This document shows positions 49,771 to 53,307 of a DNA stretch of 64,000 nucleotides, one piece after another. Under the pieces are notes generated by a model. The model saw only the letters and a program-made list of their open reading frames with translations. It made no database searches and had not been told where the DNA came from. Every line of letters begins with the position of its first letter. The stretch's first letter is position 1. The position numbers and the translations under genes were made by a program. Source of the DNA: Prochlorococcus sp. AH-736-L23 (GTDB taxonomy: Bacteria; Cyanobacteriota; Cyanobacteriia; PCC-6307; Cyanobiaceae); assembly GCA_028141225.1 (NCBI GenBank), contig JAOIPS010000003.1, positions 18,380 through 82,379 on the forward strand, written 5' to 3'.

Positions 49771-50856
49771 TCAACGTATTTTATTCAAAGTTATTTCTTT
49801 TTGCTTCCAATATATCTCTTTTTTAATCAAACGCTGAAATTGATTTTTTAGCTCATTTATTTTGTTCCTTTGAATAGAAAGATTTAAATTTTTAAACTCC
49901 AACTCAACAGTAGATATATTTAAGAAAATAATGCTTGGAAAATTATTGCCGATTAATGATGACCGATCTAAGTTTAATTCGAAACTAATAACAAAAGGAT
50001 ATGGATGTTTTATCATAAAATTTTTACTGACTAAGTAATTAAAGGAATCTTTAGATATCATTTTTTTTATTAGATTTGCCTTAAATAATTCTTGGTTAAT
50101 ATCATATGAAAGATTCAATAGTAAATTTTCTAATGACTTGTCTATTAAATCAAGATCATTAAGAATCTGATTTTTTTGTAAATTATTCATTTGATTGATA
50201 TTTTCTTTTTCTGGATGTCTTAGCTTTTGCACCTTTTCTTCTCCTATTAACTCAAGTAGGGAGGAAATAAATTGTTTTTCAACTCCTAAATTTTCAAAAA
50301 AATTGTTTTTAGATAAATAATTATTATGGTCTTTATTATCTAAATTAAGTGATGCGAATTTTTCATAATTATGAGCTTGATAATATTCAGAAGCATTTGA
50401 AAAGTCTTTACTTATCTCGAACTGAGTGGGTTCTTTTAATTGAAAAAAATCTTCATATTGAAATTTTTCTTTTTGATCATCCTTTTTTTTTGTGGAACTA
50501 TCAAAAATATTAAAATTAAATTCCTTATTTATATTTTTTTCAATTTCATTTATTTTTAATTGTTCTACTGTTAAAAAGGGCAAATTCGTAAATATTAATT
50601 TACATATTTTTTTTTCAAAAAGACTACAGAATTCATTTTCATTTAAGAAATTATCTTTAATTGTTGGATAACTATATATTTGATTAAGGCCTTTTTCTGC
50701 AGAGATAAAAAGTAGATCTCTTACTAGATTAAGATAAAGTTCGTATTCCCTATAGATATTTCTAGTTAATATTCTTTTTTGTATGTCTGCTTTCTCTAAT
50801 TGAGAATTAATTTTATCTATATCTATGTAATTGTTTAAATTTTTCAAATCATTCAA
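49771..50856 (-). CDS. hypothetical protein downstream of tsf
   Basis: ORF track gives 49771..50925, which overlaps tsf by 65 nt; TTG at 50856 (just after the tsf stop at 50861) is a more plausible start. Confidence 0.6.
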   Translation of the reverse strand: MNDLKNLNNYIDIDKINSQLEKADIQKRILTRNIYREYELYLNLVRDLLFISAEKGLNQIYSYPTIKDNFLNENEFCSLFEKKICKLIFTNLPFLTVEQLKINEIEKNINKEFNFNIFDSSTKKKDDQKEKFQYEDFFQLKEPTQFEISKDFSNASEYYQAHNYEKFASLNLDNKDHNNYLSKNNFFENLGVEKQFISSLLELIGEEKVQKLRHPEKENINQMNNLQKNQILNDLDLIDKSLENLLLNLSYDINQELFKANLIKKMISKDSFNYLVSKNFMIKHPYPFVISFELNLDRSSLIGNNFPSIIFLNISTVELEFKNLNLSIQRNKINELKNQFQRLIKKEIYWKQKEITLNKIR

Positions 50857-50860
50857 GTGA

Positions 50861-51517
50861 CTAGTTTGTTTGCATTGATGCAACCTCTTCAGCAAAGTCC
50901 ATCTGATTTTTTTCGATACCTTCACCCAATGTATATCTTGTAAAGCGTCTTACTTTAATATTTTCTCCAATTTTTGCAGCTGCTTGTTTAACAAGATCCT
51001 CAACAGTTAGAGAACTATCTTTAATATAAGGTTGTGAAAGCAAAACAAGCTCATTAAGTCTTTTTGCTATTCTCCCTTCAACTATTTTTTCTTTAATCTG
51101 TTCTGGTTTCCCTGACAAATCATCCCTGCCCATTTCAATCTGCTTTTCTTTTTCCACAACATCTTCTGGTATTTCATCGATTGATACATACTCAACATTT
51201 GGGCATGCTGCTACTTGCATTGAGACATCCTTCAACAGAGATTGAAAAATATCACCTCTAGCGACGAAATCAGTTTCACAATTTAACTCTAGTAAAACTC
51301 CGACTCTTGATCCAGTATGTATATAACTACCTATTGACCCTTCGGCCGCTACTCTTCCCGATTTCTTTTCGGCACTCGCTATGCCTTTCTTTCTTAACCA
51401 TTCCAAAGCTTTATCTAGATCTCCTTCAGTTTCGTTGAGAGCTTTTTTGCAGTCCATCATTCCTGCACCAGTTTTGTCTCTAAGATCTTTTACAAGTTTT
51501 GCTGTAATGTTTCCCAT
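50861..51517 (-). CDS. tsf: elongation factor Ts
   Basis: [34 protein letters not shown]. Confidence 0.97.
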
Positions 51518-51561: not shown

Positions 51562-52266
51562 TTAATTTTTTCTTTCGGCATTAGAGCCCTTTCTACCCTC
51601 ATTTATGGCATCTGCAAGCCTTCCCAAAATAAGTTGCACAGATCTAACGGCATCATCGTTACAAGGAATTGGAACTTCACACAAATCCGGATCACAATTT
51701 GTATCCAACATTGAAACTAATGAGATATCTAATTTTCTAGCTTCTAAAACTGCATTAGATTCTCTTCTCTGATCAACCAATACAACTACATCTGGTAATC
51801 TTCTCATACCCTTAAGTCCACCTAAGTATTTTTGTAATCTTTCAAGTTCTCTCCTTAAAACTGCAGCCTCTTTTTTAGGTCTCATTGCTATTGAACCACT
51901 ACTTTCCATTCTTTCTAAATCCTTTAATCTTTCAATCCTTGCTTTCATTGTTGTCCAATTAGTCAACATCCCTCCAAGCCATCTTTGATTTACATATGCA
52001 GCTCCACAACGTGTGGCTTCCTGAGCTACTACATCTGATGCTTGTTTTTTTGTACCTACAAATAGAAAACGTTTACCACTTTTTGCTGCATTTCTCGTCC
52101 ATTTATACGCATTGTTCATACACAATGCTGTTTTCACAAGATCAATAATGTGAACTCCATTTCTCGCGCAATATATATACTTAGACATCTTGGGGTTCCA
52201 ACGTCTAGTTTGATGCCCAAAATGAGCACCAGCTTCCATCATTTCTGATAGTGATACAACAGCCAT
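51562..52266 (-). CDS. rpsB: 30S ribosomal protein S2
   Basis: [48 protein letters not shown]. Confidence 0.98.
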
Positions 52267-52278
52267 AATTTAAAAAGG

Positions 52279-52342
52279 GTTTCGGGTTAGCCTCCATCTG
52301 ACGGGGAATTAGTTTAAATAAATCACCCGAAACTGTCAGATG
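52279..52342 (-). promoter_or_regulatory. rpsB 5' leader structured element (predicted H-type pseudoknot or attenuator)
   Basis: Interleaved perfect inverted repeats, plus-strand: GTTTCGGGT 52279-52287 with ACCCGAAAC 52325-52333; CATCTGAC 52295-52302 with GTCAGATG 52335-52342; sits 12 nt before the rpsB ATG. Confidence 0.75.
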
Positions 52343-52395
52343 TGCGGATTTAATTTCAACGATTCTAGCAAGTGATGTGTATTTCTAAAAGTTTT

Positions 52396-53307
52396 TTATC
52401 TTGATTTGGTTAATTGTTTAATGTAAATCAAATTTAGAGGGATCCTAAAGATCTCAAGTGCAAGTCTATTTTTTTTTATATTTACTAGGAATCTTAATAA
52501 AGGAAGGATTCTATCAACACTGATTAGTCCCCCCAAGCAAAGAATTTGCCAAAGTAAATTATGAAGAGGAGTTAATTGAATCATAAATCTAACTCTTAAA
52601 TTTGGATGTTTCTTATAAAACACTAAAGCCATTTTTGCTCTCTCTTTTTCTTGAGCTATCAAAGAATCTATTTGTTTGCAATTAAAAGGCGGATGCCAAT
52701 GAAAACCAACTGCATTTGGACATTTAATTAATTTTGTCCCAATTTTTTTTAATCTTTCTCCAAGTTCTAAATCCTCCCAACCGTAAAGACTAAAAGAAGT
52801 ATCAAATAATCCTACACTTGAAATCAATTCTTTTGATATCGCAACATTGCCCGTAGCAAAATAAGCAAATGAAGTATCCATTATTTTATGTTTTTCACTC
52901 TGAGGGTTTAGAAAATTAGATGTATTGACTACCGAGCCATAAGTAAAACATTTTTTATCATTTTTTCTCCAAGAGGCAAGTAATTTTTCTACGTGGCAAT
53001 TTATAAAATTATCTAAAACAATAAGATCACTATCAATGAATATAATAATTTCATATTTTGATTTAATTACTCCCAGATTTCTTCCAAGTGCAGGCCCTCC
53101 ATGTTCTTGCTGAAATAGAACAACGTGTGGAAGATTAGCTTTGTTTTTATTTATCCATGAGGTTGTACCATCAGTTGATCCATCATCAACTACTATTACT
53201 TCATAATTACTAATATTTGTATTTAATTTTTGATTCTCAAGCGCAAAGAGACATTTCTCTAATATAGGTAATCTATTGTAAGTCGGTATAACAATACTTA
53301 CATTCAT
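52396..53307 (-). CDS. family 2 glycosyltransferase
   Basis: VSIVIPTYNRLPILEKCL, VVDDGSTDGT, IFIDSDLIV. Confidence 0.92.
   Translation of the reverse strand: MNVSIVIPTYNRLPILEKCLFALENQKLNTNISNYEVIVVDDGSTDGTTSWINKNKANLPHVVLFQQEHGGPALGRNLGVIKSKYEIIIFIDSDLIVLDNFINCHVEKLLASWRKNDKKCFTYGSVVNTSNFLNPQSEKHKIMDTSFAYFATGNVAISKELISSVGLFDTSFSLYGWEDLELGERLKKIGTKLIKCPNAVGFHWHPPFNCKQIDSLIAQEKERAKMALVFYKKHPNLRVRFMIQLTPLHNLLWQILCLGGLISVDRILPLLRFLVNIKKNRLALEIFRIPLNLIYIKQLTKSR

Follow-up and report, generated by a model that had tools for sequence, protein, structure and literature searches.

In Escherichia coli, ribosomal protein S2 represses translation of rpsB-tsf through the leader RNA, a control that needs S1 (PMC10931766). 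A leader element termed the rpsB motif was described by Meyer et al. (2009) as consisting of P1, P3 and a pseudoknot, with Cyanobacteria amongst its carriers and with P2 absent or very short in that group (PMC2704228). For two model cyanobacteria, Voss et al. (2009) predicted a structured element upstream of rps2 (that is, rpsB), listed as the 'rps2 leader' cluster 394; in the portion of that article considered here, the cluster comprises two sequences only and a pseudoknot does not figure in its description (PMC2662882).

We analyzed a window of 64 kb, the whole stretch of DNA under study, in which the leader of rpsB contains two perfect interleaved stems of 8 and 9 bp (52279-52342 on the minus strand, separated from the AUG by 12 nt; Table 1), exactly as the original prediction had it. 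We consider it very probable that this element is a cyanobacterial rpsB leader RNA (rpsB motif / t44), in other words a pseudoknotted mRNA operator for S2. The gene order rpsB-tsf in the window is the same as in the E. coli operon, tsf being our presumptive name for the second gene, given by its translation. A pattern search of the organism's own genome, which is 75% complete, found the stem 2 pair at rpsB only.

Table 1. Features of the rpsB leader and the adjoining genes, in window positions.
Feature	Position	Strand	Sequence or size	Basis or remark
Likely promoter	52362..52389	-	TTTAGA - 16 nt - TAGAAT, TG before the -10	9/12 matches, by itself not above chance
CRCA, conserved, just 5' of P1	52343..52346	-	CGCA here	Alignment A1; CACA in E. 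coli
P1 (stem 1), 5' strand	52335..52342	-	CATCTGAC / CAUCUGAC	Covariation at 8/8 pairs
Single nucleotide between P1 5' strand and stem 2 5' strand	52334	-	A	
Stem 2 (pseudoknot), 5' strand	52325..52333	-	GTTTCGGGT / GUUUCGGGU	
P3 region / loop	52303..52324	-	22 nt	Length variable
P1 3' strand (P1')	52295..52302	-	GTCAGATG / GUCAGAUG	
Linker	52288..52294	-	GAGGCTA (RNA GAGGCUA)	
Stem 2 (pseudoknot), 3' strand	52279..52287	-	ACCCGAAAC	
Spacer up to AUG	52267..52278	-	12 nt, CCTTTTTAAATT / CCUUUUUAAAUU	Pyrimidine-rich, without Shine-Dalgarno
rpsB (ribosomal protein S2)	51562..52266	-	234 aa	Start codon ATG 52266-52264
tsf (elongation factor Ts), next gene	50861..51517	-		Translation

Layout and local folding of the leader

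The linker together with the last G of P1' makes up a conserved GGAGG that is also present in E. coli. In other cyanobacteria the P3 region is a hairpin of the type GUUUC...GAAAU, in place of which GGGUGAUU could pair with AAUUCCCC in the window. P1 combined with this local GGG/CCC hairpin folds at -14.7 kcal/mol, and the pairing (52303-52333, minus strand) excludes stem 2. Such exclusion would allow a local two-state switch, in which the loop GGG has two alternative partners, ACCC in the repressed state (stem 2) and the CCC just before P1' in the open state (an extended P3), with S2 tipping the balance. A CCC just 5' of the P1' core is found in 88/90 Prochlorococcus leaders and in 18/24 leaders from other genera of the picocyanobacterial family; however, only 6 of 57 leaders from other cyanobacteria carry it, hence the CCC is not a general feature, and it may be conserved for another reason. 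We regard a switch of this kind as rather unlikely.

Interleaving as such was rejected as evidence, since shuffled windows yield about one case each: in the AT-rich window, interleaved perfect pairs of at least 8 and at least 9 bp within 80 nt are expected about 0.85 times per dinucleotide-shuffled copy (51 in 60 shuffles). The pair in the rpsB leader has 9 G-C pairs out of 17, and pairs of at least 7+7 bp with at least 9 G-C pairs turned up just twice in 60 shuffles. The interleaving is by itself weak evidence, and it is conservation that makes the element in the rpsB leader real. The single-sequence fold of the leader, obtained by a method blind to pseudoknots, is not stable beyond its shuffles (z +0.57). 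A second perfect interleaved pair (9+8 bp, with one G-C pair only) lies in AT-rich sequence at 50308-50372 of the window and was taken as chance.

Distribution in cyanobacteria and relation to the proteobacterial operator

A scan of contigs returned 80 Prochlorococcus-group loci, and those reaching far enough upstream carry the element nearly letter for letter, with compensatory changes in P1 such as CUGGC/GCCAG. Across the phylum, rpsB was located in 287 of 292 genomes, and a leader set was assembled from 73 upstream stretches of divergent genomes and 30 further loci of the closest genomes. None of the 90 Prochlorococcus leaders lacks the element, nor does any of the 24 from other genera of the family. 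Throughout the class Cyanobacteriia, the order CRCA-P1-(n)UUCGGGUGUUUC-P3-P1'-GGAGG-nn-AACCCGAA recurs in almost every leader, and the element stands directly 5' of rpsB in all class leaders examined. Outside the class, most leaders are without a clear element.

We also built R1, a covariance model of P1 and P3 only, from cyanobacteria only and with no non-cyanobacterial sequence. Under stringent filters it matches 174/194 class genomes and 106/109 genera, a count of genomes with a match, whose location relative to rpsB was checked in part. Amongst the 20 genomes missed by R1, 19 have a recognisable rpsB, and a search of the locus itself found the element in 19/19 (G241 included). A second, weaker R1 match occurs in each of eleven genomes (G294, G060, G045, G019, G039, G364, G369, G385, G397, G403 and G420). 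L172, which belongs to the phylum but not to the class, gives a weak but complete R1 match of 19.6 bits at 414-491, in which stem 2 is reduced to roughly GGU/ACC.

Upstream of the element, the TAGAAT box that had been noticed about 25 nt before stem 1 is located at 52367-52362, 25 nt away start to start and 19 nt from its end to the stem. Constant in its distance from the element, the pattern TGnTAn(2-3)T recurs in 83/83 of the distinct upstream stretches from Prochlorococcus, in 24/24 from other genera of the family and in 50/56 from other cyanobacteria. This conserved spacing suggests a dedicated promoter from which the whole element would be transcribed. A gene on the same strand (52396-53307 of the window, minus strand), presumably glycosyltransferase-like as we named it by sequence alone, ends 129 nt upstream of rpsB, so that read-through into the leader is possible beside the proposed promoter.

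When applied to 100 kb of E. coli, R1 finds its best match in the rpsB leader (24.2 bits, with the next match at 10 bits), and each part has its counterpart: aacaCACA-CGUAUC...GGGGUGCCC...GAUACGUG-GAGGCAUA-ACCCC in E. coli, CGCA-CAUCUGAC...CGGGUGAUU...GUCAGAUG-GAGGCUA-ACCCG in the window. The leader of E. coli (t44, RF00127) shares the succession CACA-P1-GGGGU-P3-P1'-GGAGG-ACCCC before rpsB-tsf, but its structured interior is longer, and a GAGG precedes its AUG. Judged by this comparison, the cyanobacterial element is homologous to the E. coli S2 operator (t44) and to the proteobacterial rpsB motif. The original prediction had left it undecided whether the two were homologous or independent; the R1 match in E. 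coli and the correspondence of the parts settle this for homology, and Meyer et al. (2009) had already recorded the motif in Cyanobacteria (PMC2704228). The proposed link to S2 autoregulation is supported.

Since the best match of R1 in the 100 kb of E. coli is the rpsB leader, with the same order of parts, the element represents the rpsB motif of Meyer et al. (2009) as it occurs in cyanobacteria, and this kind of control element is already known. The likeness extends to the position upstream of rpsB, to P1, to the variable P3 and to the pairing of J2-3 with a 3' extension after P1; P1 and stem 2 are separated by one or a few nt, and P2 is absent, as Meyer et al. note for Cyanobacteria. For groups other than the Firmicutes, however, stem 2 was predicted to have 5 bp (PMC2704228), against 9 bp in the picocyanobacterial family.

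The Rfam comparison that the original prediction had called for came out below the gathering scores. Neither RF01815 ('rpsB'), which we take to be the motif of Meyer et al., nor RF00127 gave anything meaningful in the window at gathering or permissive thresholds. In two other cyanobacteria RF01815 scores 24.9 and 22.9 bits, where its threshold is 40, and RF00127 exceeds its threshold in 0/96 cyanobacterial genomes; a sub-threshold match of RF00127 in one genome (G293) coincides with the R1 match. As the gathering score is not reached, we do not assign the element formally to either family. Essentially the whole phylum escapes the Rfam models, a gap that a cyanobacterial model repairs.

The low scores of the models built for proteobacterial elements would be in line with an independent cyanobacterial origin and mere resemblance to the proteobacterial operator, but the same gene, the same order of parts, the same letters (CACA, GGAGG, GGGUG, AACCC) and the specific R1 match in E. 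coli make such an origin very unlikely. With homology as the preferred reading, Cyanobacteria and Proteobacteria share one ribosomal protein operator architecture that can be recognised from both its sequence and its structure, and feedback by S2 is therefore probably of ancient origin and did not first arise in the gammaproteobacteria.

It had further been proposed that stem 2 and the CCUUUUU after it act as an intrinsic terminator in competition with P1, i.e. as a transcription attenuator. The stem 2 hairpin alone (-12.2 kcal/mol) indeed beats P1 alone (-9.7 kcal/mol), and the U-run follows it in the window. However, this hairpin would have a 37-nt loop and is less stable than P1 with the local GGG/CCC hairpin, and a run of five U after stem 2 occurs in 55/90 Prochlorococcus leaders, in 0/24 from other genera of the family and in 0/58 from other cyanobacteria, while the stems persist. 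Attenuation is hardly credible in view of these counts. An intrinsic terminator as the general function was rejected, there being no compact hairpin and no U-run in any of the 82 class leaders outside Prochlorococcus (0/82).

Covariation of the stems

To follow the pairing across lineages, 44 leaders were aligned with MAFFT from sequence only (alignment A1). P1 shows changes on both sides at 8/8 pairs, with 96.6% of cells paired, and its score lies above all 500 shuffles and all 500 tree-based simulations, the latter being a procedure of our own. The structure as a whole likewise scores above each of the 500 shuffles, and the signal is lost when the partners are slid against each other. The alignment of rpsB 5' UTRs that had been suggested thus bears out P1, as well as P3, for which 0/500 tree simulations reach the observed value, but it does not do so for stem 2, where 15/500 simulations reach it.

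Stem 2 lacks tree-corrected covariation because its core of four pairs, GGGU/ACCC, never varies. This core is invariant on both strands, and complementarity is kept in nearly all rows; three outer pairs show changes on both sides, among them C-G to U-A and U-A to A-U, each in a different lineage. Deep-branching lineages keep stem 2 despite change, as UGGGU/ACCCA in family f19 and as CUACGGGU/ACCCGUAG in family f18. Its counterpart is GGGGU/ACCCC at the same place in E. coli and CCGGU/ACCGG in the RF01815 consensus, which is of the alphaproteobacterial type. Stem 2 appears well supported by the invariance of the core, by a few changes confined to particular lineages and by its counterparts in other phyla, rather than by tree-corrected covariation within the phylum. 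The conserved complementarity, the invariant core and the outer compensatory changes argue for the pseudoknot topology that had been predicted.

Although GGAGG and the conserved -10 are close by, the idea that the block serves solely as a promoter or ribosome site, a signal at the level of DNA or of translation with incidental stems, can practically be dismissed, as changes on both strands of P1 keep the pairing across the class, which neither kind of signal would require.

Proposed control by S2 and the initiation region

By analogy with E. coli, the most likely function of the pseudoknotted leader would be translational autorepression by S2. The transcript would start about 10-20 nt upstream of P1, the P1 hairpin would form, and the GGGU side of its loop would pair with the ACCC 3' of P1 to give stem 2 and thereby the pseudoknot in the cell. 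When S2 is in excess over its assembly sites on ribosomes, it would, as homology suggests, bind the leader, stabilise the fold and block initiation at rpsB; in E. coli, S2 acts together with S1. The downstream tsf would also be affected by the block. Once S2 is consumed by ribosomes, the fold would open or be ignored. Our literature search found no S2-binding or reporter results for any cyanobacterium. An arrangement of this kind would be an operator of small size and strong conservation in genomes that have few regulators.

In cyanobacteria outside the picocyanobacterial family, a Shine-Dalgarno-like sequence is present in 57/58 leaders; AGGAG and the AUG come only a few nt after stem 2, and a stabilised stem 2 would therefore sit against the ribosome site. 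Within the family, a Shine-Dalgarno after stem 2 was found in 0/90 Prochlorococcus leaders and in 0/24 leaders from the other genera. Stem 2 abuts the initiation region in the window as well, as it ends inside a ribosome footprint, 12 nt from the AUG. Pairs 1 and 2 of the 9-bp stem persist in every distinct row of the family, in one case as G-U, while elsewhere they are mostly unpaired.

The picocyanobacterial combination of a 9-bp stem 2 with the loss of the downstream Shine-Dalgarno may be new. It is through S2 that S1 docks on the ribosome. We tentatively consider it possible, though short of likely, that marine picocyanobacteria remodelled the S2 operator in losing the Shine-Dalgarno and lengthening stem 2 to 9 bp, and that S2 control there bears on an initiation free of Shine-Dalgarno and plausibly dependent on S1. 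S1-dependent initiation has been proposed for Prochlorococcus (PMC5607370), and, as a matter of speculation, the pyrimidine tract after stem 2 may fit such a mode. In family f18 (L203-L208, L210), the GGAGG after P1' is lost, and the different stem 2 of this family lies right before a GGAG.
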